This document shows positions 3,397 to 34,271 of a DNA stretch of 42,128 nucleotides, piece after piece. The stretch is from a virus. Both the position numbers and the translations under genes were made by a program. Location: positions 1 to 42,128 of IMG/VR virus record IMGVR_UViG_3300020572_000017; one strand, 5' to 3'. The notes beneath the pieces were generated by a model. It did not search any database. It saw nothing but the letters and a program-made list of their open reading frames with translations, and was not told where the DNA came from. Within the stretch, counting starts at the first letter, position 1; every line of letters starts with the position of its first letter.

Positions 3397-4222
3397 TATA
3401 ATAGACGCTGATGTAGACGAAGTTATTGCAAGCTCTAAAGAAGTTATTACAAATGAAGAAGTTGTAACTGACGAAGTTGTAGAAGTAAAAACTCGAGGAC
3501 GCAAACCTAAAAACAAACAATATTTTACTAAAGATACTGAAAATGCAATTTTACTTTATAATCAATTAGAGAATGATTATGAGCGTAATAAGATTTATGA
3601 CGCTGAAATAAAATATCCATTTGATAAGTTAGTTGAAAATATAATTCATACTTTTAAATTCTATCACTTTGATGTTCCATATGAAGATGTTAAACATGAA
3701 GTGGTTGCATTTTTAAATGAGAAAATTCATAAGTATACTGATCCTAATAAAGGAAAGGCATTTTCATATTTTTCAATTATTGCAAAGAATTATTTAATTA
3801 TTCATAACAATGGAAATTATAATAAATTTAAAAATACAGAACAGCCTGAAGTAATTGATGACAGAAGAAATGTTATTAATGAAGTATTGCGTGAAGAAGA
3901 TGTTCAAGAAAAATCAGAATTCATGGATTTGTTTATTAAATATATGGATGACAATTTATCTTCTATGTTTAAAAAGCAAGCAGATATGTCAGTAGCTGAT
4001 TCAGTATTAGAATTATTCCGTAACAGAGAAAACATTGAAAACTTCAATAAAAAGGCTCTTTATATCTTAATAAGAGATCGTACAGGAGTGAAAACTCAAT
4101 ACATTACCAGAGTAGTCAATACAATGAAAAATGCTTATATGGAAATGTATGACAATTATAAAAAGACAGGATTCGCAACAATTAACCAAGCAAAATTTAA
4201 AAAGTCGGAATTCCTAGAATAA
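3380..4222 (+). CDS. Probable late-transcription sigma factor (T4 gp55-like)
   Basis: The 280-aa protein resembles gp55-type late sigma factors of T4-like phages in its middle region. DKLVENIIHTFKFYHFD and VAFLNEKIHKYTDPNKGKAF, followed by SYFSIIAKNYLIIHNN, match in pattern the T4 gp55 segment where a D/N-x-TKYKNPHAYIT motif precedes an aromatic helix binding promoter DNA and RNA polymerase. An N-terminal acidic extension of about 35 residues precedes an AT-hook-like RGRKP at residues 39-43. The C-terminal third is helical and basic (LIRDRTGVKTQYITRVV) and could be a region-4-like or DNA-binding part. A gp55-like factor would direct late transcription of the virion genes and fits the recurrent upstream motif described elsewhere here. 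Similarity was judged by eye; another DNA-binding regulator is the main alternative. Confidence 0.6.
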   Translation: MNTEINIIDADVDEVIASSKEVITNEEVVTDEVVEVKTRGRKPKNKQYFTKDTENAILLYNQLENDYERNKIYDAEIKYPFDKLVENIIHTFKFYHFDVPYEDVKHEVVAFLNEKIHKYTDPNKGKAFSYFSIIAKNYLIIHNNGNYNKFKNTEQPEVIDDRRNVINEVLREEDVQEKSEFMDLFIKYMDDNLSSMFKKQADMSVADSVLELFRNRENIENFNKKALYILIRDRTGVKTQYITRVVNTMKNAYMEMYDNYKKTGFATINQAKFKKSEFLE

Positions 4223-4243
4223 GATATTTATTTTAAAGGAATT
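4209..4243 (+). promoter_or_regulatory. Putative late promoter in an RBS-hairpin, site 1
   Basis: The motif GATATTTATTTTAAA (octamer TATTTATT at 4225-4232) sits in the loop of a 7-bp perfect inverted repeat, AATTCCT (4209-4215) and AGGAATT (4237-4243), with a possible outer G-U pair. The right arm contains the best Shine-Dalgarno-like sequence, AAAGGA (4235-4240), 4 nt before the ATG at 4245. The left arm overlaps the end of the sigma-like gene. If transcription starts a few bases after the octamer, the late mRNA lacks the left arm and the site is open, while read-through mRNA would mask it. Confidence 0.5.
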
Positions 4244-4244
4244 T

Positions 4245-4679
4245 ATGGATTTTGATATAGAAATTTTCAAAGGTAAGTCGTTCTCCGACTTAATGAAAGA
4301 TATTTACTCTAACTCTTCAAAGAAAGATCGTCAGATAAATATGTTAATTGGGGAACTAAGACCCTTAATTAAGAATATTGGTGATGCTACGATAATTGTA
4401 CCATTAATCAAAGAATATTTAGAAGTAGGTGTTAAGAATGATGAGCACCTTGTTAAGCTAGCCGCTGTTGTGCAGAGGCTAGTTTCTACTAGTAATAGGG
4501 TTCAAGCAGAAACAGGCAACTCATGGATGTTATCTGAAGATGAAAAGAGACAGTTAATGGGTGAGTTGGATGAAATTGTAGGAACTGAAAAAACTATTAA
4601 TGAAAAAGTAGTAGAATTATCAACTCAACAAAATCAGATAGAAGCTGAAATTAACGATATTCAAGACGGATTAATATAA
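4245..4679 (+). CDS. Hypothetical protein upstream of the tail hub gene
   Basis: This 144-aa, largely alpha-helical soluble protein has no recognisable catalytic motif. Residues 1-60 contain FKGKSFSDLMKDIYSNSSKKDRQ; residues 100-144 form a Glu/Gln-rich probable coiled coil ending in QQNQIEAEINDIQDGLI. It opens the tail/baseplate block and its TAATG stop/start overlaps the hub-lysozyme gene by 1 nt, so tight co-expression is expected. A small hub, chaperone or assembly role is suggested only by position. The start at 4245 is supported by AAAGGA just upstream. Confidence 0.75.
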   Translation: MDFDIEIFKGKSFSDLMKDIYSNSSKKDRQINMLIGELRPLIKNIGDATIIVPLIKEYLEVGVKNDEHLVKLAAVVQRLVSTSNRVQAETGNSWMLSEDEKRQLMGELDEIVGTEKTINEKVVELSTQQNQIEAEINDIQDGLI

Positions 4680-6664
4680 TGGCAACACAATCATCGACAG
4701 GTGCTGGATCATATCAATTAATGCCGGCAGAAGTATTAGAAGTATTATATTCTGATGCTAATCCAAATTTAATTTATGGTATAAAAGTAAAAGCTCTAGA
4801 TGATACTCCTATAACTAGCGATACTCCAGAAGCAGCTGCATCTGTAATGACTGCAAAGCCATTAAATACTAGTTTTATACGAGTACCAATTGTAGGAGAA
4901 GTAGTTTTAATTTTAAAAGCACCGAGCTCTTACGCTACGGGAATTAGAGCAACTACAGACACTTACTATTTAGATATTGTATCTTTACAATCTAGTATTC
5001 ATCATAATGCTATACCAACAGTAACTGCTAAACAAGTTCAAAAAGGAGAAGCAGCGGGAGATTCAGATAAATATAAAGAGTCTGAAGCTGGAAATACTCA
5101 ACAACCCAGAGAACCTAAAATTGACGAAAACTTTACAGAAAACCCAACCGTTAAACCATTACAACCTTACGTAGGTGATGTATTAATAGAAGGTAGATAT
5201 GGAAACTCAATTCGCTTTTCAACTTCTCCTAAATCAGGTAAATTTACCGTAGCTCCAAGATGGTCTAAAGGACCAGAAGCGGCTCCTATTACTATATTTA
5301 GAAATACAAAGCAAGGAATAGATACTAAAAAAATCAATGATTATGTGTCTGAAGATTTTACAAATGATGATAATATCATTGTAATGGCTTCTGGACAAGA
5401 ACTTCAATTTGAACAAGCATCTGGAGTAACTACTTCAATTGATAGTAAAGGAATAACTTCTTGGAAAGATGAACAATGGGGTACGACTCCACAACTATTA
5501 ATTTCATCAGGTAGATTAGTATTTAATAGTAGCCAAAAAGAAATTATATTCTTTGCAAAGAATGGAATTGGATTATCTTCAGAAACTTCAATTGCAATCG
5601 ATTCAAAAGAAGATGTATCTATAAATGGTAATAAAATTGAATTAGGTACCGATTCTGATGAGCCATTAATTTTAGGTAATAAATGGAAAGAATGGGCATC
5701 TGGATTAATAGATGATTTAGCAAAATTAACAGTACTTACACCGGTAGGCCCGTCATCTCCACTATCAGCTTCACCCCAATGGGCTTCTATAGCAGCCTAT
5801 AAAGGAAAAATAGACTCTTTATTAAGTGAGATATCGTTCACTAAAAAATCGGCCAATATAACGACAGGAACGTCGTCGAAAGTATTAGCAGTTCCAGATT
5901 ATAAAATGACTCCGGAAGAAAAAGCTGCGAAAGAAGAAGAAGTTAAACAAATAAAAGAAGAAGCAGCTACGGTTACTGAAACTCCAGAGCAAACACAAAC
6001 TCGAGATGAATATATTCAATTTAAAGAAGAAGAAATTGAAGATGAAGAAAATCAAAATGCACCCGCAGATGATTATGATCTAGATGATGATAGTGTTGAA
6101 GAAACTGCAAATGATTTATTCTCTTATATAAAAGCAAAAAATGCTGATGGTAGTGGCGGTTCAAATACAGCTCCAGCAGATAATTCTGTAGATTTAGATT
6201 CTAAAGCTATTGGAAAAGGAGTTAACGCAGTTAAAGCAGCTATTAAAGATATCGGTCAATTAGAAAGTCCAGTTAAAACGAATTTTGGTGGTAGAGTAAC
6301 TGAAATGTTAAAAAATACCGGAATTTCAGGTCCAGCATTTTGGTGTGCTGCAGCAGTAACTACATGGTGGAAAGCAGCAGGAATGTCAGTTCCACCCGGA
6401 CCAGCTAGTTGTCAAAATTGGATGAATTGGGCTAAACAAAATAATAGATGGTCAGCAACTCCAGTTATCGGAGCCGCAGCTATTTATATTACTAAAGGAG
6501 GACGTGCACATCATATAGGACTTGTAGCTGAAGTTACTAATAACGGAAGAATAGTTACTATTGAAGGAAATACAACAGGTGGCGGATTTAATAGAGATGG
6601 TGTAGGAGTATTTAAGAAAAATCCTAAATTAACATCAATAGCAGGATTTGTATTACCAGCATAA
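4679..6664 (+). CDS. Baseplate hub protein (gp5-like) with C-terminal CHAP peptidoglycan hydrolase
   Basis: The 661-aa product starts with an OB-fold-like domain (about residues 12-125) and contains the gp5-type signature VLIEGRYGNSIRFSTS (about 163-178), common in T4-like hub/tail-lysozyme proteins. A beta-rich stretch with repeated short strands (about 180-330) could be the trimeric needle stem. Residues 420-500 are an acidic, low-complexity linker (EEEIEDEENQNAPADDYDLDDD). The C-terminal 120 residues are a CHAP-type amidase/endopeptidase: Cys556 in FWCAAAV, His612 in AHHIGLV, then IEGNTTGG. T4 gp5 instead carries an internal glycosidase lysozyme; here a different enzyme sits at the C-terminus. 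It should pierce the outer membrane and open peptidoglycan during injection. It is followed at once by the gp25 and gp6 region. Confidence 0.9.
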   Translation: MATQSSTGAGSYQLMPAEVLEVLYSDANPNLIYGIKVKALDDTPITSDTPEAAASVMTAKPLNTSFIRVPIVGEVVLILKAPSSYATGIRATTDTYYLDIVSLQSSIHHNAIPTVTAKQVQKGEAAGDSDKYKESEAGNTQQPREPKIDENFTENPTVKPLQPYVGDVLIEGRYGNSIRFSTSPKSGKFTVAPRWSKGPEAAPITIFRNTKQGIDTKKINDYVSEDFTNDDNIIVMASGQELQFEQASGVTTSIDSKGITSWKDEQWGTTPQLLISSGRLVFNSSQKEIIFFAKNGIGLSSETSIAIDSKEDVSINGNKIELGTDSDEPLILGNKWKEWASGLIDDLAKLTVLTPVGPSSPLSASPQWASIAAYKGKIDSLLSEISFTKKSANITTGTSSKVLAVPDYKMTPEEKAAKEEEVKQIKEEAATVTETPEQTQTRDEYIQFKEEEIEDEENQNAPADDYDLDDDSVEETANDLFSYIKAKNADGSGGSNTAPADNSVDLDSKAIGKGVNAVKAAIKDIGQLESPVKTNFGGRVTEMLKNTGISGPAFWCAAAVTTWWKAAGMSVPPGPASCQNWMNWAKQNNRWSATPVIGAAAIYITKGGRAHHIGLVAEVTNNGRIVTIEGNTTGGGFNRDGVGVFKKNPKLTSIAGFVLPA

Positions 6665-6710
6665 ATTTCCAGTAAATTCATAAAGTAAATAATTATAATA
6701 AAGAAGAACT

Positions 6711-7630: not shown

Positions 7631-7634
7631 TATA

Positions 7635-11512: not shown

Positions 11513-11522
11513 AACAACCTGG

Positions 11523-11553
11523 AATATCTTAATAAGATATTTATATTAAAGAA
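11523..11553 (+). promoter_or_regulatory. Putative late promoter with hairpin, site 2
   Basis: GATATTTATATTAAAG (octamer TATTTATA at 11538-11545) lies 12 nt before the ATG at 11558. AATATCTT (11523-11530) and AAGATATT (11534-11541) form an 8-bp hairpin with a 3-nt loop that covers half of the motif. An alternative fold pairs TCTTAAT (11527-11533) with ATTAAAGA (11545-11552) with one bulged A, which resembles the other sites more closely. The motif match is strong; the structure is ambiguous. Confidence 0.45.
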
Positions 11554-16049: not shown

Positions 16050-16079
16050 TTTTTAAAGAATCTATATTTATTAAAAAGG
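16050..16079 (+). promoter_or_regulatory. Putative late promoter with AT-only inverted repeat, site 3
   Basis: CTATATTTATTAAAAAGG (octamer TATTTATT at 16065-16072) lies 17 nt before the ATG at 16090. TTTTTAA (16050-16056) and TTAAAAA (16071-16077) form a 7-bp A/T-only stem with a 14-nt loop; AAAAAGG at its right edge is the likely ribosome-binding sequence. The AT-only arms make the structure weaker evidence than at 18085 or 34239. Confidence 0.4.
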
Positions 16080-16089: not shown

Positions 16090-16767
16090 ATGGGATACTT
16101 AAATAACAGTACAATTACCGTAGATGCTATTCTTACTAAAAAAGGTAGAGAATTACTTGCTCGCGGTAAAGATGAATTTAAAATTACTCAATTTGCTTTG
16201 AGCGATGACGAAATCGATTATGATTTATGGAATCCTGCTCATCCACTTGGGTCTGATTACTATGGCGTAATTATAGAAAATATGCCTTTAGTAGAAGCAT
16301 CGGCAGATGAATCAAATATTATGCGTTATAAATTGGTAACATTGCCTAAGAAAACAGCAAGGATTCCAGTTATATCAGTTTCACAAACTTCAATCAGTTT
16401 AACTTCTCCTGGTCAAAGATTTACCGTAGTACCAACTACAACTAACTTTGATAAAGGAAATGCAACTTTAGGCTACACAGCAATTTTATCTAATTCAGAT
16501 GTTGCTACATTGCAAGTTAACCAACCAGTTACTTCAGGAGTTAGTCCTACAGTACCTAGATTTATTGGAGATTCGGAAGCAGCTCAGACTGTTAGCGCAG
16601 TTGGATTTAGCTTTAATTTAATTGCTAAACAACAATTAGTATCAGATGTTCAAGCAACGCTTACTATTATAGGAAATGAAACAGGTGGTAGAACAACAGT
16701 TAACGTTACAGTTAAGAAAACATCTTTAGCAACAGCAACTGGTACTTCAATTAGTAACGCACAATAA
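16090..16767 (+). CDS. Conserved tail-region structural protein, function unknown
   Basis: The 225-aa product starts with MGYLNNSTITVDAILTKKGR and has a conserved-looking N-terminal domain to about residue 95 (ITQFALSDDEIDYDLWNPAH; DYYGVIIENMPLVEA). It then shows an Ig-like beta domain (about 95-220) with regular Thr/Val strands (PVISVSQTSISLTSPGQ, ATLTIIG, TTVNVTVKKT). An N-terminal attachment domain with a C-terminal Ig-like module is a common design for virion proteins. Codon use and spacing match the surrounding tail genes. It is 17 nt upstream of the next gene. I cannot give it a T4 gene number. Confidence 0.75.
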   Translation: MGYLNNSTITVDAILTKKGRELLARGKDEFKITQFALSDDEIDYDLWNPAHPLGSDYYGVIIENMPLVEASADESNIMRYKLVTLPKKTARIPVISVSQTSISLTSPGQRFTVVPTTTNFDKGNATLGYTAILSNSDVATLQVNQPVTSGVSPTVPRFIGDSEAAQTVSAVGFSFNLIAKQQLVSDVQATLTIIGNETGGRTTVNVTVKKTSLATATGTSISNAQ

Positions 16768-18084: not shown

Positions 18085-18116
18085 TAGGCTCTTTGATATT
18101 TATATTAAAGAGCCTA
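18085..18116 (+). promoter_or_regulatory. Putative late promoter inside a perfect 10-bp inverted repeat, site 4
   Basis: TAGGCTCTTT (18085-18094) and AAAGAGCCTA (18107-18116) are perfectly complementary. The 12-nt loop, GATATTTATATT, is the core of the recurrent motif (octamer TATTTATA at 18097-18104). The ATG is at 18127. No T-run follows, so it is not an intrinsic terminator. This is the clearest example of the motif-in-loop arrangement; the mixed-base 10-bp stem is unlikely by chance at this spot. Confidence 0.6.
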
Positions 18117-18126: not shown

Positions 18127-19860
18127 ATGGGAAAACCAGGTGCATTCAAAAAAATAGGTAATCAAGACCAAACGATTACTCCTTTTAAGGCTTTCAAGTC
18201 TTGGAGATATGAGTCAACAGCTAGTTTAGACGCTTCTGGAATTGATAGATTAGTTGCAATTAAACCTAATCCAAACGTTTATTCAGGAAATAAAGTAACT
18301 TTGGAAACATGGCAACGAGAATTAGATTCAGGATCTTTATTAGTCAATTCTGCTAACTTTAAAGAATCTGCTTTAATGTGGTACAGTCTTGATCATTTAT
18401 ATTTTAAAAGAGCTGGTAAACCTTTTGAAACATTTGGCTATTCAGACCCATATAAAATAGAAAGAACTTTATTTGATGAAGCTTCTATTATTTCAATTCC
18501 ACAAAAACAATTTGGAGAAGGAATTAAACCAGGCTCTGTTAAATTGCATTTAACCAATCCTGCATTGTTAGCAACTTCAATGTCGTTTGTAGATGATGGA
18601 AAAGGCAATTTAATAGATTTGGCATTACCAGAGCCAGTTGATCAAGAACTTTTATATTTAGGATTTAATTCTTCTACATATGCAAAGAATTGGACTTCAG
18701 AAACAGTATCCACTGAAGATACGGATATAGTAAATGTATTTAAAGTAGATACTATAGTACCTGAAGTAACTGTAACAGGTAAAAATGTTTGGATATCTCC
18801 TAAATATGAATTACCTTCAGGATCTTGGGGTAATGCAGCACATTTCTATGAAGATAGTTATATTCGAATTCCAAACAAAGATGAATTCAATTTTAAACAA
18901 TCTCAAGATTTTGCAATTTCATTCTGGCTTAAGCGAGATGCAGTAACTGCAACAGATCAATATGTGTTATCAAAACGCACAACAGGCACGGCAGAAACTC
19001 TTAATAAAAAATTAATTAATACTTTAGATGTAAATGTTAACGCATCACAATATCCATTTGAAATTTATTATCCTTCAGGTTCATTTGCATTAACTTGTAA
19101 AATGTCTGATGGCGGAAGCACTTCTACATTATCAAACATACATAATGTTAGTGATCGAATTCACGTAATACTTCAAAAAACAGGTTCATTGATGCAACTA
19201 TGTATTAATGGAGTCGTAGCTGGTAGCACAAATGCGCCAAAAGGTAATTTCCATAACAATGCAGATGTATTTTTAGGCTCGTTAGGATTAAATTCAAATA
19301 GTATAGGCAATAAAGGATTTGTAGGAGCTATTGATGAATTTTTCATTTTCAATAAAGCATTAAATAACACAGAAAGAGCTACAATATCAACTACTTCATA
19401 TGATGTATTAATGAGTACCAATACCAATGCAGTTGGAAATGTATTTTATGAGCATGGTATTATTGTAATTTCAGATCCTAGACCAAAATATGGAAAAGGA
19501 ATTTATAGAATGTTCAATGATAAAGTATATAACTACTTAACAGGTCAGACACAGCAAGGTAATTTAACTGAATTTTATTTAGAATTTAATTCAACAGTTA
19601 CTTTATATGAGCATGAATATATTTGCAAACTAAAAGAAGATGAATTTAACTTTACATCTAATCCAACAATTCGAGAAGATAACAATGTAAATTCAGAAGT
19701 ACCAAAAGCAATAGTATCAAATACTCATTTTGCTCCTTATATTACAACAGTAGGTTTATATACTAAAAATGGAGAATTAGTAGCAGTAGGAAAATTAGGA
19801 ACACCAATTAAAAAACGAGATGATGTTGATTTAAATCTTATCATTCGTTTCGATATATAA
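18127..19860 (+). CDS. Virion structural protein B with LamG-like domain and shared C-terminal module
   Basis: The 577-aa product has a conserved-looking N-terminal domain (1-225: FKAFKSWRYESTASLDASGI, LMWYSLDHLYFKRAG) followed by a LamG/concanavalin-like lectin domain at about 235-430. That domain shows FYEDSYIRIPNKDEFNF, FAISFWLKRD, ALTCKMSDG and the characteristic closing GAIDEFFIFNKALNNTE. The C-terminal 90 residues (DEFNFTSNPT, YITTVGLYTKNGELVAVGKL, GTPIKK) match the end of the 425-aa neighbour. The LamG domain suggests polysaccharide or cell-surface binding from the virion. It ends 14 nt before the endonuclease I gene, with no visible terminator. Confidence 0.8.
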   Translation: MGKPGAFKKIGNQDQTITPFKAFKSWRYESTASLDASGIDRLVAIKPNPNVYSGNKVTLETWQRELDSGSLLVNSANFKESALMWYSLDHLYFKRAGKPFETFGYSDPYKIERTLFDEASIISIPQKQFGEGIKPGSVKLHLTNPALLATSMSFVDDGKGNLIDLALPEPVDQELLYLGFNSSTYAKNWTSETVSTEDTDIVNVFKVDTIVPEVTVTGKNVWISPKYELPSGSWGNAAHFYEDSYIRIPNKDEFNFKQSQDFAISFWLKRDAVTATDQYVLSKRTTGTAETLNKKLINTLDVNVNASQYPFEIYYPSGSFALTCKMSDGGSTSTLSNIHNVSDRIHVILQKTGSLMQLCINGVVAGSTNAPKGNFHNNADVFLGSLGLNSNSIGNKGFVGAIDEFFIFNKALNNTERATISTTSYDVLMSTNTNAVGNVFYEHGIIVISDPRPKYGKGIYRMFNDKVYNYLTGQTQQGNLTEFYLEFNSTVTLYEHEYICKLKEDEFNFTSNPTIREDNNVNSEVPKAIVSNTHFAPYITTVGLYTKNGELVAVGKLGTPIKKRDDVDLNLIIRFDI

Positions 19861-24200: not shown

Positions 24201-24423
24201 CAATGTATCTTCATTACCTAGACCAAATTTCCTAGCTATTGATGAAGGATTTGGTGTACTTGATTCTGACAACTTAAATTCCATATTCAATTTATTTGAT
24301 TATTTAAAAAGTCAATTTTCATTTATGTTAGTAATTTCTCATATTGACTCTATGAGAGATGTAGTAGACCATTTAGTAGAGATTGTTAAAACCAACGGAA
24401 ATTCCAAGATCTATTACATTTAG
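21265..24423 (+). CDS. 47/46: Fused Mre11-Rad50 (gp47-gp46) recombination nuclease
   Basis: The 1052-aa product joins two T4 proteins in one chain. Residues 1-330 are a calcineurin-like nuclease (Mre11/SbcD/gp47): Asp19 and His21 in LADIHIRN, Asp57 in FLGGDIVH, GNHD (Asn92-His93-Asp94), His161/His162 and GDIHKP (Asp196, His198). Residues 385-1052 are the Rad50/SbcC/gp46 ATPase. Walker A is APNASGKST with Lys413, followed by long coiled coils and a zinc hook Cys726-x-x-Cys729 (CKFC). The LTSG signature lies near Ser963 and Walker B is AIDEGFG with Asp993-Glu994. In T4 these are separate genes and form the end-resection complex for recombination-dependent replication. Both halves look intact. 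Confidence 0.95.
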   Translation: MKTFNIGIDKIDKIYHLADIHIRNLKRHQEYKTVFERTVNAIKATIGPNDIIFLGGDIVHAKTDMTPELVQSVQEFFKMFADIAPTILITGNHDCNLNNKSRLDALTPIVNALNHPNMYYLKDSGVYHIADKHFVVMSVFDKPKDFIKADSFTGDYKIALHHGAVNNALTDIGFRLVNDNVDIDTFKGYNITLLGDIHKPNQYLDEAKTIAYPGSLIQQNYAEALLHGMLVWDTNTSQAEFVEIPNDICYYTLEIDNNNFNPIPDLLKGKTIRLRIKSQNTEPADLKAAIAEIKTDFNIEEFTIQKVNDFTQNKTRVQKINIGDVRDTEYQNELISKYLENKFALDDDILDGVRHVNRTVNSGLPTLEINRNVSWIPKRFEFSNMFSYGIDNVIDFTNMKGVYGIFAPNASGKSTMLDAITYCIFDKCGRTSKASSVMNNKSGSFKCKFNFELDGKDYFIEKIATKGRGNHVRVDVDFYTIDDLGQKESLNGKERSETNDHIRQLLGTYEDFVLTALSVQNNNSGFIDMAQKDRKDLLAQFLDINIFEDLYNIANQDIKEVATLVKEYQRQDFGTQLAQAITDIDTFSKEHKSYQIDKLELESKIEKINEQILQLTGDLVPIDSSIENIDLLNDTKSKVEKLAIDLSIDAVNKTEESSNVEIKIAELNLELNKFNISEIQARIDVLESIKTNENTLVGHVERLKAEVRHKLEKMEKLNDLEYDENCKFCMDNVFVKDAIATKASIEHDKSEAQELANKLDVVKQKIAELIPSVQEKEDYNKLQREIHQNESVKSSIESALHQIDSKQHQLATKLNEVVHQIEEYYKKEAAIKENKLIKAVINNLNDEVSSLKSDLSILNDDILNCHSNMLVAEKLKEKAEESIVKLKDLTQQYKFYEYYLQAVNRDGVPYDLITTAVPYIEQEINNILTQLVDFNLMLEMDGKNINCYIVYDQDNFWPIELTSGMEKFVSSLAIRTALINVSSLPRPNFLAIDEGFGVLDSDNLNSIFNLFDYLKSQFSFMLVISHIDSMRDVVDHLVEIVKTNGNSKIYYI

Positions 24424-24442
24424 ATATTTATTTTAAATAGAT
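24409..24442 (+). promoter_or_regulatory. Putative late promoter with hairpin, site 5
   Basis: GATATTTATTTTAAA (octamer TATTTATT at 24425-24432) begins just after the stop codon of the fused nuclease gene. ATCTATT (24409-24415) and AATAGAT (24436-24442) form a perfect 7-bp stem with a 20-nt loop holding the motif. The ATG of the fibre-like gene is at 24456. The site lies exactly where transcription changes from a DNA-metabolism gene to a virion gene, which fits a late promoter. Confidence 0.5.
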
Positions 24443-24455: not shown

Positions 24456-26984
24456 ATGGCTAAAAAAGAAATAACATACCAAGGTCTAGTCGACTTAAAC
24501 GTTCAGGTAGAAGACATTAGTTTAAGCTCACCCAATTATTTCAGAGTGTCTAAACTGCCTTCTGAATTTACTGCTGGTAAAAACGTGTTTCGGTTCAAAG
24601 GAAACGCTTCATTATTTGCAGAAGGAGCTCCTATATACATTGAAATTTTAGATGCAAATGGAGATCCAATTTATTATGAAACTAGTTTAGATTTAGAGTC
24701 AGCAGAACAAGCTGCTATTGTTACAGTTTATATAAATGAAGATACTGCCCCAGGCGTAGCAATTATTGCTATTTGCAGTACTGCAAACTATGACATTGAT
24801 GGAAAGATATTAGATACAACACAAATTAATGTTCGTTGGACTAATCAAATTTATATTGATGTTTCTAAAAGAAATGAAGCTGAAATAATTTTTGATGCCC
24901 TTCCAGAAGTCACTGTATTTCCATCAACAGGTTCTTATATAGTTAAAACTTATTTCGGAAATAATAAAGTAGCTCAATTAGCATTTTCATCATCTAAATA
25001 TTATTATAGAAACGATACACCAATTGTAACTGGATATATTGGAAATATTGGAAATGGAGTAGCTGCTAATTATGTAATTGATCCAAATAGTTTAGAAGCC
25101 GCGACAATTACATTTCCAATATCTTCATTACAGAATGCAACTCCAGCTGCTCTTAACACAATAACTACTACTCAATTTACTAGCAGTGTTGATTCATTTA
25201 TTTATAACACAGATATTTTATGGTTTAATCTAGATCAAGCTTATGGAGACACATGGGATCCATTAACCGCTAAATTATTAATTGCCGGAGCAATACCAGT
25301 AAATAAAACAGTATCTGATTATTTAAGTGTAGGTCAAGAAGTTCAATTAGCAGTTGACACCTTTTACGATTATGAAATAATTACAGCAAGAATTGTTAGC
25401 ATTAATAGTAGTAATGAAATAACTTTAGATAATACTACTTCTATTACTGATCCATTATACACAGGTACTCTGCTACCATCTATAGGAATTAAACTTGCAC
25501 AACCTTTAACAGTTGATCAGACTAACGGAATTGAGCATATTTATAGCAATGCTTCTTTTAGTACAAATCCAACATTTACATTTGAACAATTACCAAATGT
25601 AAGTGCTAGTACTCAAAATACAAACAATTTAGTTACTGTATATTTTAACAATTTAGAACCTCAAACAGGAACAGTATCTAAAATTAGATCATATTATCGC
25701 TCATCGGGTATTGGAGAATATATTCTTTCAAATGAAACAGATATATCTGGACAAGAAACAGAATTTGGATTTAATACAAATGTAGTAACCGCTTCGTTCT
25801 TTTTACCTACAACTCAAAGAAATGATAAATTAGATTTTAAATTTGAATTTGTTAATCCTGCTGGATTTGTTTCAAAACAAGTTGTAGAATCTGTAAACAA
25901 TACATTTTTAGGTGGCAACACTTACATAGGAGGTGATGATAATTTATTAACGGGATCTTTATATGTAGCAGGCTCAACTGGAACTGGAGTTCACATTTCA
26001 GGAAAAGGAAAGTCAGCGATGATTCGCAGTATTGGATATACAGGATTTCAAAATGCAATCGCGCCAGGAGGAACGGGAGGATTTGTAATGTATTCTGGAT
26101 CTATTCAACCTTTATTAGGTTCCGCAGAATCATATTCTGGAGTAGGTTTAGAGTTAGTAGCAAATTCAGCTTCTTATTTTAAATACGCTACTGCAGGAGG
26201 TGGAACGTTAGACATTAGAACAAATTCATTCTTTTTTGGATCGCCTAGTTCATCTTTTATAAGCTCATCTAATGGAGCAATTTCAATATTCTCTAATAAT
26301 TTCAAATTAAATACAATAGGTCAAGTTACTGCTTCTGCAATTTTAGTAAATAAAGTTGTTGCTAGTACAGCTCAGACAATGATTGATACTTCCAATGCTA
26401 TATTGGACGCTACAAATTTAGGAAGAACTTTATATCACGATCCAACCGAGTATACTGTACAGTCAGCTAGTTTTTCTGGATTTAACACTACAGGTACATA
26501 TATAGGATCTACAGTATTTCAAGGATTGAAAAATGAGTTTAAGTATACTATATCATATCAAAATAAAATGATAATTTCTGCGGCCGCAAGTGCAGTTGTT
26601 ACTAAAACAACTAGTTTAATTGCTAGTTGGTCATATGCAAATTCCGGATCTAATTACGACATGACTCATTTTTATACTACCAATATGTCATTGAATGGCA
26701 CTGCAGTTGGAACTTATACTAAAACGTTTTCTGAAGATTTAGCTGAAGGTTCAGCTCTTGAATTAACTAATCAAGTTCCATTCGGAGGGTCAGATTATAC
26801 AGGGTATCAAGGAAAATTAATGCGAGTTGATTTGTATTTAAGAATAGGAGGGCCTTCAGGCGCGAGTGGTATTTCAACTATAACAGGCTCGATTAAAAAT
26901 ATTACTATAACAGGTACTCGAGGTTTAGGGTCTTCATGGGGTCAGGAATTAACAGAAGATCCAATTGGAGGAGGATTTTTTTAA
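24456..26984 (+). CDS. Tail fibre-like structural protein
   Basis: The 842-aa protein is almost entirely beta-strand-rich (Thr, Ser, Asn, Ile, Gly, Tyr). Residues 1-160 form a conserved-looking domain (ITYQGLVDLNVQVEDISL; FRVSKLPSEFTAGKNVFRF; QINVRWTNQIYIDVSKRN). Residues about 485-640 contain Gly/Ser-rich short repeats (GGNTYIGGDDNLLTGSLYVA, GGTLDIRTNSFFF, SSNGAISIFSNNFKLN) like a triple-stranded beta-helix of fibre or spike proteins. The C-terminal 180 residues could be a receptor-binding or trimerising head. No catalytic motif is seen. It pairs with the collagen-like fibre gene immediately downstream. The role is inferred from composition and context. Confidence 0.7.
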   Translation: MAKKEITYQGLVDLNVQVEDISLSSPNYFRVSKLPSEFTAGKNVFRFKGNASLFAEGAPIYIEILDANGDPIYYETSLDLESAEQAAIVTVYINEDTAPGVAIIAICSTANYDIDGKILDTTQINVRWTNQIYIDVSKRNEAEIIFDALPEVTVFPSTGSYIVKTYFGNNKVAQLAFSSSKYYYRNDTPIVTGYIGNIGNGVAANYVIDPNSLEAATITFPISSLQNATPAALNTITTTQFTSSVDSFIYNTDILWFNLDQAYGDTWDPLTAKLLIAGAIPVNKTVSDYLSVGQEVQLAVDTFYDYEIITARIVSINSSNEITLDNTTSITDPLYTGTLLPSIGIKLAQPLTVDQTNGIEHIYSNASFSTNPTFTFEQLPNVSASTQNTNNLVTVYFNNLEPQTGTVSKIRSYYRSSGIGEYILSNETDISGQETEFGFNTNVVTASFFLPTTQRNDKLDFKFEFVNPAGFVSKQVVESVNNTFLGGNTYIGGDDNLLTGSLYVAGSTGTGVHISGKGKSAMIRSIGYTGFQNAIAPGGTGGFVMYSGSIQPLLGSAESYSGVGLELVANSASYFKYATAGGGTLDIRTNSFFFGSPSSSFISSSNGAISIFSNNFKLNTIGQVTASAILVNKVVASTAQTMIDTSNAILDATNLGRTLYHDPTEYTVQSASFSGFNTTGTYIGSTVFQGLKNEFKYTISYQNKMIISAAASAVVTKTTSLIASWSYANSGSNYDMTHFYTTNMSLNGTAVGTYTKTFSEDLAEGSALELTNQVPFGGSDYTGYQGKLMRVDLYLRIGGPSGASGISTITGSIKNITITGTRGLGSSWGQELTEDPIGGGFF

Positions 26985-27006: not shown

Positions 27007-27021
27007 GATATTTATTACAAA
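27007..27021 (+). promoter_or_regulatory. Putative late promoter motif, site 6
   Basis: GATATTTATTACAAA (octamer TATTTATT at 27009-27016) lies 16 nt before the ATG at 27033. I see no convincing short inverted repeat around it: TTTAATT upstream can pair with AATTAAA at 27026-27032, but the loop would be over 30 nt and the arms are AT-only. The motif is accepted on sequence and position alone. Confidence 0.4.
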
Positions 27022-27032: not shown

Positions 27033-28085
27033 ATGGCTATAACAAATTTATCATCTCAATACATTTCATCTTCATTTCAAAGCTTGATGCAAGTATCAAG
27101 TTCCAATGCAGTATACAATGGATCAGGAACTCAAATAACTACATTGTTAGTTAGTGCGTCTTACGCCACTACATCATCATACGCTTTAAATGCCGCAACT
27201 GGATCGCAAGGAACTTCTGGTGCTCAAGGTGCTACGGGTACAGCAACTCAAGGTATTCAAGGTCGTCAAGGAGTTACTGGTACAGGAACTCAAGGAGCGA
27301 CTGGCGCAGGTGCTCAAGGTACTATAGGTACTCAAGGAAATTCAGGTGTTCAAGGAGCGACAGGCACTAGCATTCAAGGAGTTCAAGGTACATCTGGCGC
27401 AGGAGGAAGTCCTGGTGGAAGTAATTATGATGTGCAATATAATAATGCTGGAAGCTTCGGTGGAACTAATTTATTAATAATTTCCGGTAGCGGCGTGTTT
27501 AATACAGCTGCTGTTTACAATAAAGCTAGCTTTATAATTAACGATGCAGATGCATCCGGAGATTCATATGGAACTAGAACTCAGATATCAGCAATTGCCG
27601 GTACAGTATACGATTTTACCGGAACTAATTTAAAAGTTCTTGATGGTAATATTATGGAGCTAGCTCCTATAGGAGTTGGAGCTTCTTTCAATATCGGTGA
27701 TGTAATACAATTTGTAGCAGCATCAGGTGAATGGGAAGCAATAACAAACGCTTCTGATACAAAATTAGCAGAGGGTAGTATTGGCGTAGTAGTTGAATCG
27801 ACTGGGTTTGGATCAAATGTTAAAGTATTGTTTAACGGATTAATTGTTGTTAAAGCACATGGCGCATATTGGGGTGGGTTTAGTTCAGGTATACTACCTA
27901 GTCGTACTGTATATCCTCGCGATACGACTGGCGGAGGCATTACGACATTAGGTACTACACGTCCAGGTACAGCTGGATACATTTTACGAGCTTTAGGCAC
28001 TGTCTTAGCAGATACTTTAGATACTCCTGGCGACCATTGGTTAACTGTACAATGGAGACCTGAACTTAAAGGAACTGTAATTTAA
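27033..28085 (+). CDS. Collagen-like tail fibre protein
   Basis: In the 350-aa product, residues about 57-130 are collagen-like Gly-x-y triplets dominated by Gln, Thr and Ala (GTQGNSGVQGATGT). They are followed by NYDVQYNNAGSFGGTN, a linker often seen after such stretches in phage fibres. The C-terminal domain (about 150-350) is beta-rich with IGDVIQFVAASGEWEAI and a final HWLTVQWRPELKGTV. The first 55 residues resemble a virion-attachment or assembly region. Collagen-like triple helices are used as rigid fibre shafts; the C-terminal domain would then be the tip. The gene is 47 nt after the large fibre-like gene. Confidence 0.8.
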   Translation: MAITNLSSQYISSSFQSLMQVSSSNAVYNGSGTQITTLLVSASYATTSSYALNAATGSQGTSGAQGATGTATQGIQGRQGVTGTGTQGATGAGAQGTIGTQGNSGVQGATGTSIQGVQGTSGAGGSPGGSNYDVQYNNAGSFGGTNLLIISGSGVFNTAAVYNKASFIINDADASGDSYGTRTQISAIAGTVYDFTGTNLKVLDGNIMELAPIGVGASFNIGDVIQFVAASGEWEAITNASDTKLAEGSIGVVVESTGFGSNVKVLFNGLIVVKAHGAYWGGFSSGILPSRTVYPRDTTGGGITTLGTTRPGTAGYILRALGTVLADTLDTPGDHWLTVQWRPELKGTVI

Positions 28086-28102: not shown

Positions 28103-30295
28103 ATGATAAAAAACGTAGTAGCAATATATCCAGGAAGATTTCAGCCGTTTGGTAAACATCACGCAGCTGCCTTCAAATGGCTGCAACAACACTTTGGCGG
28201 AGCGAATTGCTACATAGCAACTTCGAATGTCATAGACCTACCTAAATCGCCCTTTTCTTTCAAAGACAAGGCAGACATTATAAGACATTATGGTTTCGAC
28301 GATAGGCTTGTACAGGTAAAGAATCCATATAAAGCGGAGGAGATAATGCGCAATTACAAGCCAGAGGATACTGCAGTAGTATTTATGGTAGGTGCAAAAG
28401 ATATGAAAGAAGATCCTAGGTTTAAAATTGGTAAAAAGAAAGATGGATCTGATTCATATTTTCAAGAATATGAAGCAAATAAAACAAATCTTCAACCTTT
28501 TGATAAACATGGATATTTAGTAGTTGCACCCCACGTTTCAATGAGCGTTCCAGGATACGGAGAAATGTCAGGTACCTCAATGAGAAAAGCTTTAGGTGAT
28601 GTAAAAACTCCTAGATCTCAAAAGATAAATTTATTCAAAGCTGTTTTTGGTTGGTATGACGAAAAGCTAGCTAAAATGATATTTGATAAATTAGAAGCTG
28701 TAAATGAATCTAAATTATCAATTGCAGAAGTAATGAAAAAAAAGAATTTAAAAATAGAAACAACTCAACCAGATCAAACTAAATTATTTAGTAAAGATTG
28801 GTGGAATGAATCGTTAGAATTAACAGAGGCAGTTTCAATTGAAGATATTAAATCTAAATTTAGTAAGTTTGTAAAAGCTATTAAGCAAGAAAGTCAAGAA
28901 ACCAAAGAAGCTTTCAAGCTATTGATATTAGCTGCAACTGGAAAGAAAACTTTAACAGACGCTGAACAAAAACAAATAGGAGATCAATTAAAAGATGTTC
29001 TTAAAACAATTGGATTAACAGCAATTGCAGTTATGCCAGGAGGATTTATTGCTGGTATATTAATTAAAGTACTTAAAGCAGAAAAATACATAACTCCTTC
29101 TTCATTTATGGAAGGATATATGTCTCCAGAACAACAAAAAGCACATGACGAGAAAATGATTAAACTAAAAGACTTTTTAGATACTAATACAGGTAAGCCA
29201 TTTGTATACGATTTCGATGAATTTCCTAAAACCGTTTATGGAGTAAATATTGAAGAGTCTTTGATCATGGAAGGCGGAGCGGGTGGTCATATGGCGCATC
29301 CATTTAATATTCCAACGGTTAAGACAGGAAAAGATTTAGTTACTGTATTTCAAAGATCAATTGATTATTTGAAAAAAGGACCTGCTTCTGTAAAAATTGA
29401 TGGAGTAAATGCTTCTATTCGTTTAATTACGCTAGACAATAAAAAGACTTTTGTAATGGATAGAGGTTCTAATAAACCTTTAGATGTTAAAGGAATTACC
29501 AAAGCAGAATTAACAGATCGTTTTGGTGAAGGTCATGGAATGATTAAAATTGGAGGTACTGTATTAGATATTTTCAATGAAGCATTATCTGAAATTACGC
29601 CAGCTCTTAAAAAATTAGGATTATGGGATAATCCTAACGTAATGTTCAATTTAGAATATGTAGCTGGATCAACTAACGTATTGTCTTATAATAAAAATTT
29701 CCTAGCAGTTCATGGATTGTTAGAAATTGCACAAGTAACTCCAACTAAAAGAGCTACTAAAGAAAAAGCATATAATAAAGCAGCAATGCAAGACTTATTA
29801 AATAATTTAGTACCGTCAGCATCAGAGCGTGGATATGAAGTGCTAGGTTCTATTCCAACTACATTAGATGGAGAACCTGATTTGTCAAAAGAATTAAATA
29901 AATCATATACAGTTAATTTCGGAGATAAAAAAGAAACTAAAACTCTTTCTCAATGGTTAGCAAAAGCAACTATACCAGACGGAGATATTAAAACCGTAGA
30001 TGGTAAAAGAATAGCTGCTTTATCTAAAGATGTTTTAATTAAAATATCAGACGGGGTAGCTTTACCAGAATACATTGCAGATCCTAAAGATTACAAAGCT
30101 GCAGTAGATGGGTTTGTTATTTACATAGCTACTATGAAATTAGGAGATGCTATTTTAGCTAAGCTAAATTCTCCATTAGGCCCCGTATCAGAGCATGAAG
30201 GTATTGTTATTCGTGATACTAAAATTTACAATAAACCATTTAAAATTACTGGTAAATTCATTTTAGGCGGATTAGCGACATCTTTTAAAAAATAA
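28103..30295 (+). CDS. Three-domain fusion: NMNAT-like nucleotidyltransferase, LETM1-like domain, RNA ligase-like domain
   Basis: Residues 1-200 of this 730-aa protein are a cytidylyltransferase/NMNAT-type fold: GRFQPFGKHH at 11-20 (a variant of the usual F-H-x-G-H site) and SGTSMRKAL at 156-164 in the place of the S-x-x-x-I/M-R motif. Residues about 245-345 resemble a LETM1-type helical domain (KLLILAATGKKTLTDAEQKQ, AIAVMPGGFIAGILIK, ending ITPSSF). Residues 391-730 look like a covalent nucleotidyltransferase/ligase. Motif I is KIDG with nucleophile Lys431, followed by MFNLEYVAGS, EGIVIRD (699-705) and FKITGKF (713-719). Joining a NAD- or nucleotide-synthesising enzyme to a polynucleotide ligase could couple cofactor supply or RNA repair. 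Segments LTE-A (240-243) and IME-G (388-391) separate the domains. Substrates are not established. Confidence 0.82.
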   Translation: MIKNVVAIYPGRFQPFGKHHAAAFKWLQQHFGGANCYIATSNVIDLPKSPFSFKDKADIIRHYGFDDRLVQVKNPYKAEEIMRNYKPEDTAVVFMVGAKDMKEDPRFKIGKKKDGSDSYFQEYEANKTNLQPFDKHGYLVVAPHVSMSVPGYGEMSGTSMRKALGDVKTPRSQKINLFKAVFGWYDEKLAKMIFDKLEAVNESKLSIAEVMKKKNLKIETTQPDQTKLFSKDWWNESLELTEAVSIEDIKSKFSKFVKAIKQESQETKEAFKLLILAATGKKTLTDAEQKQIGDQLKDVLKTIGLTAIAVMPGGFIAGILIKVLKAEKYITPSSFMEGYMSPEQQKAHDEKMIKLKDFLDTNTGKPFVYDFDEFPKTVYGVNIEESLIMEGGAGGHMAHPFNIPTVKTGKDLVTVFQRSIDYLKKGPASVKIDGVNASIRLITLDNKKTFVMDRGSNKPLDVKGITKAELTDRFGEGHGMIKIGGTVLDIFNEALSEITPALKKLGLWDNPNVMFNLEYVAGSTNVLSYNKNFLAVHGLLEIAQVTPTKRATKEKAYNKAAMQDLLNNLVPSASERGYEVLGSIPTTLDGEPDLSKELNKSYTVNFGDKKETKTLSQWLAKATIPDGDIKTVDGKRIAALSKDVLIKISDGVALPEYIADPKDYKAAVDGFVIYIATMKLGDAILAKLNSPLGPVSEHEGIVIRDTKIYNKPFKITGKFILGGLATSFKK

Positions 30296-30325
30296 GATAA
30301 TTATTATTATAAATAAAAAAATGCC

Positions 30326-30931
30326 ATGGCAACGAAGTTACGTAATATAGAAGCAATTAAAAAAATGCTAGATGGTACTCACCGTACTCAAAATAAAACA
30401 ACGGTTGGGTTTTCAGATGCAGATAAAGTTGCTAATCAAAACAAAAAAAGAGCGGTTGGTGAATGTTGGGTTGAGAATGGGGATGAATGGGAGCAAAGAG
30501 AAGGCTTTAAAATTAAAAAGGGTAAAATGGATGAAATCCGTCAACTCATTGCTAATAAAATGCCGTCGACATGTCCTAAGTGCAATAATTCAATGACAAA
30601 GCGATTGGATGAAAAGTTCTGGAAGTTAGAAAAACATTGTTTTGACTGTCAAGTAGATTTCGAACATAATCTTCGTATTGAAGGAAAATATGAAGAGTAT
30701 GAAAAAGAAAGAATGCTTAAAAATGCAGAAGCTTGGTTAAAAGATGCAGAGCAAGAGGCTAAAGAATTAATTGAGTCTTTTAGAAACCCTGCTAACTTTA
30801 CCAATGTAGATGGCACGACAGAACAATGGAATGGTGGAATGACTGCAGAAGAAATTGCAGACAAAATAGAAAAAGAATTTGTACTTTTCAAAGAAAACTT
30901 TATAAACGAATTAAACAACAACAATAAGTAA
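30326..30931 (+). CDS. Zinc-ribbon protein, function unknown
   Basis: The 201-aa protein has a central zinc ribbon, Cys83-P-K-Cys86 and Cys105-F-D-Cys108 (TCPKCNNSM and HCFDCQVDFEHNL). Before it is a basic conserved-looking region (ECWVENGDEWEQREGFKIKK), and after it a long acidic helix to the C-terminus (KEEMADKIEKEF-like composition). The start at 30326 is preceded by TATAAATAAAAAA; an out-of-frame ATG lies 5 nt upstream at 30321. It overlaps the next start by 1 nt. Zinc ribbons often bind nucleic acids or RNA polymerase, but nothing more specific can be said. Confidence 0.8.
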   Translation: MATKLRNIEAIKKMLDGTHRTQNKTTVGFSDADKVANQNKKRAVGECWVENGDEWEQREGFKIKKGKMDEIRQLIANKMPSTCPKCNNSMTKRLDEKFWKLEKHCFDCQVDFEHNLRIEGKYEEYEKERMLKNAEAWLKDAEQEAKELIESFRNPANFTNVDGTTEQWNGGMTAEEIADKIEKEFVLFKENFINELNNNNK

Positions 30932-31533: not shown

Positions 31534-31543
31534 TAAACATATA

Positions 31544-32499: not shown

Positions 32500-32512
32500 A
32501 AATAAAATAATA

Positions 32513-33439
32513 ATGAAAACCGAATTAATACAAGAATCTATTAGACTTAGAAAATTAGCAGGTTTAGTAATTAACGAAGATGCTACAGATGATAAAGCAG
32601 CTGAAGAAGTAAAAGATTTAATTACTAAAGTTTCAAACTATGAAGAGTTTGTTGCTAAATTAGGTACATTAGCGTCTGATAAAAAAGTGCAAGCATTTAT
32701 CACTTCAGGCAGAACAGACGGAGACCAAACAGATGATTTATTAAAAGCAGTTTCAAAAGCAATTAAAGTAACTGATTTAAGACCTACTCAAAATGAAATT
32801 GATGTTAATGGGTCATTGAAGTGGCCATTAACAAAAGCAGATTCTCTAGCTAATTGTTTAGGAAATAACACAGTAACTATTAAAGCTCCAATTGTAACTT
32901 ACAATGGAGAATATATTATAGACGGACATCATAGATGGAGTCAGTTATATGCTATGAATTCCAGAGGTGTAATTGATGCTATTGATTTAGTAGGACCTAA
33001 AATAAATCCTGTAGATGTATTAAAGATAGTACAATTAGCTATTGCAGCTGAATTAGGTAAAGTACCAACTCAAAGCGTGCAAGGTCAAAATCTTTTAAAA
33101 GCAGACGCTAAATTTGTTCGTGAGTATGTTATTAAAAATATCACTCCAGAGTGTATTGATGTATTTAAAAGATTTCGTTCTAAAGTTGCAAATGTAAATA
33201 AAGCAGAAGGAATTGCAGATGGTATTGTAGTACCTAATATTAATTCAATGCAAAAAACATCACAGCCAGTAGCCGGAGCACCTAAAAGAGATGTAATGCC
33301 TCAGACTGATGATGCAGTTAATGCAATGAAAAATATTTCCAAAGGAGTTGTTAATTATAATGAGCCGTATATACAAGAAGAATCAGTAAATAAAAAATTA
33401 GATAATATGCTTAAAAAGTCTATTATCAAAATAAAATAA
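32513..33439 (+). CDS. ParB-like domain protein with N-terminal capsid-targeting-like peptide
   Basis: I start this gene at the ATG at 32513 (308 aa), not the in-frame ATG at 32444, because the longer form would overlap the conserved RYWSC-ending frame by 56 nt and adds residues with no family character. The N-terminus MKTELIQESIRLRKLAGLVI, then N-E-D, has an amphipathic helix ending in I20-N-E22, like T4 internal proteins that are cut by the prohead protease. The middle (about 90-150) resembles a ParB/sulfiredoxin-like nucleotide-binding fold: LRPTQNEIDVNGSLKWPL, then IVTYNGEYIIDGHHRWSQL with D137-G-H-H-R141. The rest is helical. A packaged, injected protein with ParB-type NTPase or nuclease activity is an attractive but unproven reading. 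Confidence 0.75.
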   Translation: MKTELIQESIRLRKLAGLVINEDATDDKAAEEVKDLITKVSNYEEFVAKLGTLASDKKVQAFITSGRTDGDQTDDLLKAVSKAIKVTDLRPTQNEIDVNGSLKWPLTKADSLANCLGNNTVTIKAPIVTYNGEYIIDGHHRWSQLYAMNSRGVIDAIDLVGPKINPVDVLKIVQLAIAAELGKVPTQSVQGQNLLKADAKFVREYVIKNITPECIDVFKRFRSKVANVNKAEGIADGIVVPNINSMQKTSQPVAGAPKRDVMPQTDDAVNAMKNISKGVVNYNEPYIQEESVNKKLDNMLKKSIIKIK

Positions 33440-33440
33440 T

Positions 33441-33986
33441 ATGATAAAATTAGTAGATTTATTAAAAGAAGACGAAGCACCAAAGTGCCCCGTAGCTACT
33501 CAAAACGTTGAGGTTAATTTAGAACATCGTCAAATTGCTATTGACAAATATGGATATGGTCCATTGAATCCGAACAATCCAAATATTAAATTTTGGAAAG
33601 ATAAAGCGGCTACTTGGAAATTAGATACCATGGAAGAAGCTAAGGATTCAAGATGTAATTCATGTGCCGCTTTTAATATTACTTCTAGAATTTTAAATTG
33701 TATTGAAGTTGGATTAGCATCTGGAGAAAAGTACGTAGCTCCTGAAGAGAAGCCAGTAGAACAAGGGCCAGAACAACAAATGGAAGCTGCTGAAGTACCT
33801 TCATGGTTACAGCCAGAAGCTCCTGAAGCTGAGGCAGAATTAGATGATACTCAAGGAGCTGAAAAAGACGCTTGGAATACTATAGAAGCTGGAAAATTAG
33901 GATATTGCACAATGCTTAAATTTAAGTGTGCAGGTTCGAGAACATGTAATGCTTGGATTGTAGGCGGTCCTGTAAAAGATAAATAA
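33441..33986 (+). CDS. Cysteine-rich conserved phage protein, possible metal or Fe-S site
   Basis: The 181-aa product has seven cysteines in two groups: Cys16, Cys72, Cys75 and Cys87 (KCPVAT, RCNSCAAF, LNCIEV), and Cys156, Cys163 and Cys169 (GYCTML, KCAGSRTCNAW). Between them is a Pro/Glu-rich low-complexity stretch (100-140). The pattern suggests one metal or iron-sulfur site assembled from both ends. YGYGPLNPNNPNIKFWKDKA is a conserved-looking core that I associate with hypothetical proteins of T4-like phages. The first ten residues, MIKLVDLLKE-D, again end in L-x-E like a capsid-targeting peptide. It follows the ParB-like gene by 1 nt. Confidence 0.78.
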   Translation: MIKLVDLLKEDEAPKCPVATQNVEVNLEHRQIAIDKYGYGPLNPNNPNIKFWKDKAATWKLDTMEEAKDSRCNSCAAFNITSRILNCIEVGLASGEKYVAPEEKPVEQGPEQQMEAAEVPSWLQPEAPEAEAELDDTQGAEKDAWNTIEAGKLGYCTMLKFKCAGSRTCNAWIVGGPVKDK

Positions 33987-33989
33987 TTT

Positions 33990-34232
33990 ATGTTAATTAC
34001 CACAGTTTTAGAAGCTCAAATTCTAGCTGCATTTCAAAAAATGACAACTGGAGAAACTGATTTAGCAGCTGCGCAGCGAACTCTTGCAAAAGATTTAGCA
34101 ACCGCAATAGATGCTTATATTAAAACAGCTACAGTAATCGTTCCTCCAGGACAATCAGTAACCGGCGTAGCAGGTCCAGCACCAGTAGTTGCAACCACAG
34201 TAACGCCGTCAGCCCCGGCAATTATTACCTAA
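33990..34232 (+). CDS. Small hypothetical protein with Pro/Val/Thr-rich tail
   Basis: This 80-aa protein has an N-terminal helical part (LEAQILAAFQKMTTGETDLA; LAKDLATAIDAYIKTATV) followed by a low-complexity tail PPGQSVTGVAGPAPVVATTV. Similar short proteins with a helical front and a PPGQ-type tail are frequent near virion genes in phages, but their role is not known to me. It begins 3 nt after the preceding stop. Small size and low complexity limit certainty, though codon use and tight spacing support expression. Confidence 0.65.
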   Translation: MLITTVLEAQILAAFQKMTTGETDLAAAQRTLAKDLATAIDAYIKTATVIVPPGQSVTGVAGPAPVVATTVTPSAPAIIT

Positions 34233-34238
34233 TATTTA

Positions 34239-34271
34239 CTACCTTTATATTTATATTAAATAAAAAGGTAG
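34239..34271 (+). promoter_or_regulatory. Putative late promoter in an 8-bp hairpin, site 7
   Basis: CTACCTTT (34239-34246) and AAAGGTAG (34264-34271) form a perfect 8-bp stem; the 17-nt loop holds ATATTTATATTAAA with octamer TATTTATA at 34248-34255. The right arm contains AAAGG, the likely ribosome-binding sequence for the ATG at 34275. Mixed-base arms and overlap with the ribosome-binding site make this a strong example. Confidence 0.55.

Follow-up and report, generated by a model that had tools for sequence, protein, structure and literature searches.

Predicted start-region-closing hairpins around a late-promoter-like motif at selected genes of a T4-like phage fragment

In bacteriophage T4, gene 49 has a hairpin leader whose regulation has been published. 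For T4 gene e, late promoters are described as lying within a hairpin: the long transcripts made early fold so that the start is masked, and late transcripts come without the 5' arm (excerpts of PMC3014915). In the homing endonuclease group formed by I-TevI, I-TevII, I-TevIII and segB of T4 and mobE of Aeh1, a hairpin masks the ribosome-binding site on upstream-initiated transcripts and a late promoter lets the late RNA escape (excerpts of PMC2988022). We analysed a 42,128-base virus fragment (IMG/VR record IMGVR_UViG_3300020572_000017), the whole of which is called the window here and whose genes are named by their start coordinates, for leaders in which a late-promoter-like motif lies inside a hairpin. 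The mechanism itself is already known from T4; the present case concerns a distant phage group and selected genes, where timing in the style of T4 e and I-TevI is indicated, with compensatory change in relatives. The closest named phages, with 53-57% identity for terminase and portal, are Flavobacterium phage immuto and Microcystis phage Mel-JY01, and no report of such leaders or of the motif in Bacteroidota or immuto-like phages was recognised in searches of the open-licence PMC literature, judged by titles and abstract starts.

All four arm pairs quoted in a first-pass annotation of this DNA, at 4209, 18085, 24409 and 34239, were located in the sequence, each with a copy of the motif:

18085-18116, plus strand: hairpin before gene 18127, arms TAGGCTCTTT/AAAGAGCCTA at 18085-18094/18107-18116, both non-coding, the predicted fold having an unbroken run of 14 pairs
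18095-18109, plus strand: motif in the loop and inner stem of the 18127 hairpin
34239-34271, plus strand: hairpin before gene 34275, arms CTACCTTT/AAAGGTAG at 34239-34246/34264-34271, both non-coding
34246-34260, plus strand: motif variant TATATTTATATTAAA between the arms of the 34275 hairpin
4209-4243, plus strand: hairpin before gene 4245, arms AATTCCT/AGGAATT at 4209-4215/4237-4243, the left arm inside the end of open reading frame (ORF) 3380-4222 and the right arm stopping 1 nucleotide short of the ATG
4223-4237, plus strand: late-promoter-like motif GATATTTATTTTAAA before gene 4245
24409-24442, plus strand: weak hairpin before gene 24456, arms ATCTATT/AATAGAT at 24409-24415/24436-24442, the left arm inside the end of an SbcC-like ORF; alternative pairings are possible
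24423-24437, plus strand: late-promoter-like motif GATATTTATTTTAAA before gene 24456

We consider it likely that at 18127, 34275 and 4245, and probably at 24456, a late promoter lies inside a start-blocking leader and the gene is translated solely from its own late promoter, as T4 e and I-TevI are. In the scheme we propose, the late promoter would be embedded in the self-complementary leader of the selected genes. Read-through RNA from an upstream promoter would contain both arms and have its start region folded shut; RNA from the embedded promoter would lack the left arm and have its start region open. Read-through RNA would be present early, and its translation blocked in the cell.

We computed what it would cost to open the start region (-18 to +6) in read-through RNA and in RNA starting in the motif, and expressed this opening energy as z against shuffled upstream sequence; mononucleotide shuffles were used here, in the flank test, in the surveys of families and of two long records, and in the swap tests on the 4245, 11558 and 24456 leaders and the earlier one on the 34275 leaders. 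Opening the 18127 start region would cost 22.4 kcal/mol in read-through RNA and 6.6 kcal/mol in the late RNA (z 11.5). The corresponding values were 12.8 and 3.4 kcal/mol at 34275 (z 3.8), 11.6 and 4.0 kcal/mol at 4245 (z 3.0), and 7.3 and 2.7 kcal/mol at 24456 (z 1.4). The remaining five motif leaders of the window showed no mask (z -0.8 to 0.6), and none of its 27 non-motif leaders reached z 2. In the identical test T4 e and 49 gave 16-18 against 1-5 kcal/mol (z 4.3-4.6), and T4 57A gave z -1.9. Folding with and without the left arm hence predicted closure and release at 18127, 34275 and 4245, like T4 e and 49, and comparing read-through with late RNA in this way provides a computable test that recovers both T4 genes. 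The logic of T4 e, soc and 49, invoked in the first-pass annotation, fits a subset of genes and is not supported as a general rule for virion genes; the promoter-like motif is common and the mask uncommon, which limits the idea.

The window resembles T4 e in having the promoter in the hairpin and an identical computed opening-energy signature, and T4 gene 49 in that a hairpin covers the start and encloses a late-promoter-like box (gene 49 itself gives z 4.6). The T4 box is TATAAATA, whereas the sequence here is TATTTAT(A), and T4 e belongs to another lineage and is a different gene. Its right arm contains a strong Shine-Dalgarno (SD) sequence, whereas 18127 has none. Unlike gene 49, the resolvase-type endonuclease I gene of the window, 19875, is itself unmasked (z -0.9), standing directly after the masked 18127. 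The T4 I-TevI group consists of homing endonuclease genes, whereas the masked genes of the window have no such match.

The motif, (G)ATATTTAT(W)TTAAA, starts 21-34 nucleotides upstream of nine start codons of the window, and the gap between its 14-nucleotide core and the ATG is 7-20 nucleotides in these nine leaders. Besides the four copies listed above, it occurs at:

11536-11550, plus strand: late-promoter-like motif GATATTTATATTAAA, flanking stem not significant
16063-16077, plus strand: motif variant TATATTTATTAAAAA, stem at chance level, family masked 0/29
27007-27021, plus strand: motif variant GATATTTATTACAAA, stem at chance level, family masked 0/12
36489-36503, plus strand: motif variant GATATTTATTTAAAA before the portal gene, stem at chance level, family masked 0/46
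38354-38368, plus strand: motif variant CATATTTATTATTAA, stem at chance level, family masked 2/44

With at most one mismatch the motif was matched in nine of ten related records, one of which is nearly identical to the window. It is strand-specific: the two records with most copies have strand ratios of 14:1 and 15:0, and a reversed control pattern gave 0 or 1 match per record. Of the plus-strand annotated genes of immuto, 12 of 84 in the virion half and 7 of 148 outside it have ATATTTAT upstream; the corresponding counts are 0 and 1 for its reverse complement and 3 and 4 for the T4 box. TATTTATA and the T4 box are distinguished by the two central bases, and the T4 box itself was not enriched (9 matches against 11.8 expected). 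Judged from the sequence, (G)ATATTTAT(W)TTAAA would be the late promoter of the phage, with RNA presumably starting near its TTAAA end. A further inverted repeat, AATATCTT-AAT-AAGATATT, occupies 11523-11541, and its right arm enters the motif; several 11558 orthologs are similar.

The nine motif leaders were submitted to a flank test, in which the energy of each site's own left flank with its own right flank was compared with 1000 mononucleotide shuffles and with 16 pairings with other sites. At 18096 no shuffle and no foreign pairing was as good. The 4224 stem gave p=0.004 (0/16 foreign pairings), the 34247 stem p=0.057 (1/16) and the 24424 stem p=0.19 (3/16); at 11537, 16064, 27008, 36490 and 38355 there was no stem above chance (p=0.20-0.97). 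When whole hairpins were folded against dinucleotide shuffles, 18127 reached z -5.7 (0/200) and 34275 z -3.4 (3/200). As chance-exceeding stems, 18085 is very strong, 4209 and 34239 are clear to borderline, and 24409 is marginal alone; the first-pass observation is partly confirmed, with stems beyond chance at 18085 and 4209 and nearly so at 34239. The AT-only repeats at 16050 and 36478, put forward as weaker cases, were rejected as signals, being at chance level in the shuffles and masked in 0/29 and 0/46 related leaders.

In relatives, the 18127 stem is kept in 27 of 28 distinct leaders (one with two mismatches), which were found by protein homology with no requirement for the motif; four of the 28 sit in loci retrieved by the motif pattern, and the survey stops short of the remote homologs L107-L109. 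Pair counts were made on alignment A2, which comprises 26 leaders, only those with ATATTTAT, exact duplicates removed. In it, 94.6% of the cells were paired and four pairs were changed on both sides; on four of five measures none of 500 shuffles equalled the alignment, on the fifth 117 did, and the counts lay far above slid controls, all of them being inflated by relatedness according to the tool's warning. Eight of the 26 rows come from the L216-L329 set, which consists of loci among the matches listed for the exact pattern TTTGATATTTATATTAAA, and this retrieval means that the motif and three inner pairs are selected in that set. L189 and L192 lose pairs in A2 because their right arms stand one column off in the alignment; these two (protein identity 32-37%) have a wholly different 18127 stem, AAGCCCCG/CGGGGCTT. 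Outside A2 stand L166 and L103, with the stem and the motif GGTATTTAT, and L187, without the stem (29% identity, start uncertain).

Compensatory change was also found at the terminase-side junction (33990/33441 homologs to terminase, synteny checked), where six of eight leaders have stems of four arm types: CTACC/GGTAG in three, and ACTGTC/GACAGT, ACTGTC/GGCAGT and TAACATTACT/AGTAATGTTA. In L113, 18 pairs extend to the start codon. Own arms averaged -10.0 kcal/mol and swapped arms -5.1 kcal/mol over the eight leaders (P 0.0004), a value that is optimistic because we chose the set and the fragment lengths after seeing the candidates and omitted L111, a copy of the L012 arms; an earlier version with the 34275 leaders, L012 and L005 gave P 0.023. 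G-U pairs are tolerated in the stems, as in RNA. The arms had been called covarying from their differences between sites of the window; the orthologs of 18127 and the terminase junction bear this out, whereas different arms at different genes are by themselves no covariation. Own arms were also better than swapped ones for the 11558 leaders (P 0.0006), the 24456 leaders (P 0.028) and a second (MDKN) clade of 4245, whose stems partly co-vary (P 0.0016), and no such effect was seen in the window's own 4245 clade (P 0.57). A helix-only family test gave p<0.01 for 8 of 10 members at 18127 and for at most 2 in other families; at 34275 (P 0.13) the family is too small.

Masking was then surveyed in 31 families with at least three leaders, counting non-redundant members and calling a leader masked when z exceeded 2 (25 shuffles each). 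Masked members amounted to 9/10 at 18127, 11/15 at 24456, with varying pairings, and 2/4 at 34275. They were 2/44 at 38389, 0/46 at 36522 (portal), 0/29 at 16090, 0/14 at 30326 and 0/12 at 27033, and none were found at 28103 (0/5), 7635 (0/4) and 40079 (0/3). The 16 families without a window label had 2/3, 2/9, 1/4, 1/5 and 1/8 masked, and none in the other eleven. Only 18127, 24456 and the 2/3 family, whose start is an ATG within the 4245 gene, had a masked majority. Leaders of the virion cluster that carry the motif (portal, 38389, 16090, 27033) were masked in 2/131 cases, or 2/145 when 30326 is added; most other motif-bearing leaders examined lack a hairpin. In the retrieved stretches of two long records, z exceeded 2 for 3 of 14 motif leaders in G001 and 4 of 12 in G002. 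Those of G002 are 18127 (z 9.2), 24456 (5.0), 4245 (3.9) and the terminase junction (4.6). Those of G001 are 18127, a ferritin-like gene that follows a dUTPase gene (z 2.4) and, at z 8.8, a zinc-finger/Vsr-like gene (L343 1-786, minus strand, leader near G001:73682) with the motif inside a strong hairpin. This last gene encodes a C2H2 finger and matches Vsr with E 2.6e-5, below the Pfam cut-off; we take it to be homing-endonuclease-like, and its masked leader recalls the T4 I-TevI group.

Several of the masked leaders come after genes that have no virion match: 4245 stands behind 3380-4222, 24456 behind the SbcC-like gene and 34275 behind a series of genes none of which has a clear virion match. 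The genes most directly concerned are:

18127-19860, plus strand: gene behind the strongest hairpin, 577 amino acids, laminin-G/ConA-like domain (Pfam PF13385, E 1.5e-13), presumably with a virion role
34275-34895, plus strand: gene behind the 34239 hairpin, 206 amino acids, hydrophobic N-terminal segment
3380-4222, plus strand: putative gp55-like late sigma gene, directly upstream of the 4245 leader

The 3380-4222 gene probably encodes a gp55-like late sigma factor, by homology and structure prediction. In many relatives a homolog immediately precedes the 4245 gene. In 5 of 15 records, none among the nearest, the late sigma family of PHROG was matched, with an E-value of 3.8e-5 for the homolog in G014 and of 0.008 for that in immuto; 2 of 30 homologs match phrog_234 (best E 0.0026). 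The window protein itself had no PHROG match. Its hhalign comparison with T4 gp55 was weak (E 0.029, probability 1.7), and the predicted fold (predicted local distance difference test, pLDDT, 76; predicted template modelling score, pTM, 0.41) gave weak PDB matches (best E 0.14), mostly to sigma-factor or initiation-complex entries.

The first-pass annotation placed AAAGG-type ribosome-binding letters often in the right arm. These are present at 4245 and 34275 and absent at 18127 and 24456. The 36 leaders are A-rich, and SD-like words at -18 to -4 occur in 4 of them, against a shuffled mean of 1.4, and also in 4 of 36 at -48 to -34. Because such words are rare, we speak of the start region and not of the ribosome-binding site, and the mask is better described as a closing of the start region than as a hiding of the SD. 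SD pairing has a small role in Flavobacterium johnsoniae (PMC8710568). If the host belongs to the Bacteroidota, a direct test is possible of whether masks function without SD pairing.

Several results weigh against masking as we propose it. The start site in the folding test is assumed, and the shuffle controls ignore relatedness. At 4245 the whole-hairpin fold reached a z of only -1.7 (13/200 dinucleotide shuffles), and the left arms at 4245 and 24456 lie within coding sequence. Only 4 of 23 members were masked at 4245 and 5 of 20 at 34899 (terminase), two of the eight junction leaders have no stem, and scattered masks appear in families otherwise without a hairpin sign (11558 4/16, 6711 2/23, one unnamed 2/9). 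In the MDKN clade of 4245, both-side changes were near control, and the percentage paired was equalled by 12 of 500 shuffles and the other measures by 76-270 of 500; in G001 the leaders of 4245 (z 0.7) and 11558 (z 1.5) are unmasked. Finally, 18127 has the best hairpin and yet breaks the position pattern: it sits behind virion-cluster genes, and early read-through is therefore not obvious there. We still regard the 4245 hairpin as a probable mask.

Some of these points would suit a reading in which the quoted repeats are mostly AT-rich chance and the 18127 hairpin alone is functional. The modest window p-values (34247, 24424), the near-control pair counts of the 4245 orthologs and the helix-only test, which singles out 18127, agree with it, but the terminase-junction swap test, the opening-energy z of 3.0-3.8 at 4245 and 34275 and the lack of any non-motif leader at z 2 do not, and we consider it unlikely.

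Instead of forming an RNA mask, the repeat could work at the DNA level, as an operator or cruciform to which a regulator binds at the late promoter. It is centred on the promoter motif, and T4 I-TevI has an operator overlapping its late promoter (excerpts of PMC2988022). Against this, the arms of orthologs differ in sequence while complementarity is kept, G-U pairs are tolerated and the predicted effect hits the start region, all of which makes an operator improbable.

We give equally little credit to the hairpin being a terminator, 3' stabiliser or ribonuclease site at which the message from upstream ends or is processed. The terminase leaders of relatives do show, by eye, a terminator-like hairpin with a T-run before the same motif, but the window stems are not followed by a T-run, a scan that allows only loops of 3-8 called no terminator-like site at them, and in L113, L007 and the window 4245 leader the right arms extend up to the start codon. 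An intrinsic terminator at the window hairpins was rejected on the first two counts. A general early-translation block on most virion genes, as first suggested, is highly improbable: the motif does precede nine window genes and many genes of relatives, and 24456 orthologs are mostly masked (11/15), but the portal, 38389, 16090, 27033 and 30326 families have the motif and are hardly masked (2/145), terminase reaches 5/20, and five of the nine window motif leaders lie at z below 0.6 or thereabouts.

Returning to masking at selected genes, we put forward a broader interpretation tentatively. In a lineage far from T4, probably infecting Bacteroidota, where SD pairing is minor, promoter-in-hairpin leaders may act as translational insulators where early or middle genes meet late genes, including behind the phage's own late sigma gene. 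In some relatives a terminator would serve instead at terminase, and a homing-endonuclease-like gene would carry the same device, which might thus be an exchangeable timing module hiding an A-rich start region and not an SD. Insulation by hairpin is plausible because a terminator-like hairpin precedes the motif at terminase in relatives: gene, motif and presumed insulation from upstream transcription are the same, although the terminator would act on transcription and the window mask on translation. The terminator-like hairpin with T-run stands right before the motif, by eye, in L221, L251, L256, L262 and immuto 119017; the immuto 128591 and 130599 leaders look similar to the latter.

The gene content was taken from 38 plus-strand ORFs of a mechanical list of 51, and one listing of relatives holds the best 80 of at least 600. 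Homology searches identified:

34899, plus strand: terminase gene
36522, plus strand: portal gene
40079, plus strand: prohead protease gene
7181 and 7635, plus strand: baseplate wedge proteins
21265, plus strand: SbcC-like subunit gene
20318, plus strand: primase gene
19875, plus strand: T7-type endonuclease I (Phage_endo_I), resolvase-type

Since terminase, portal, protease, baseplate wedge, SbcC-like, primase and endonuclease I genes are present, the window is by sequence homology classed as a fragment of a T4-like myovirus; its host probably belongs to the Bacteroidota. Mel-JY01 (PP395634.1) is a Microcystis phage by deposit, yet its terminase and portal group with the Flavobacterium phage, and its host label may deserve checking. 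Its head gene cluster encodes ribosomal protein bS21 (L210 22183-22410), which is relevant to SD use in the lineage. In L111 (10033-12060) the terminase gene is interrupted, residues 4-162 and 156-201 matching about 1.4 kb apart, as an intron or intein would give; the terminase match of L113 likewise stops at residue 162.

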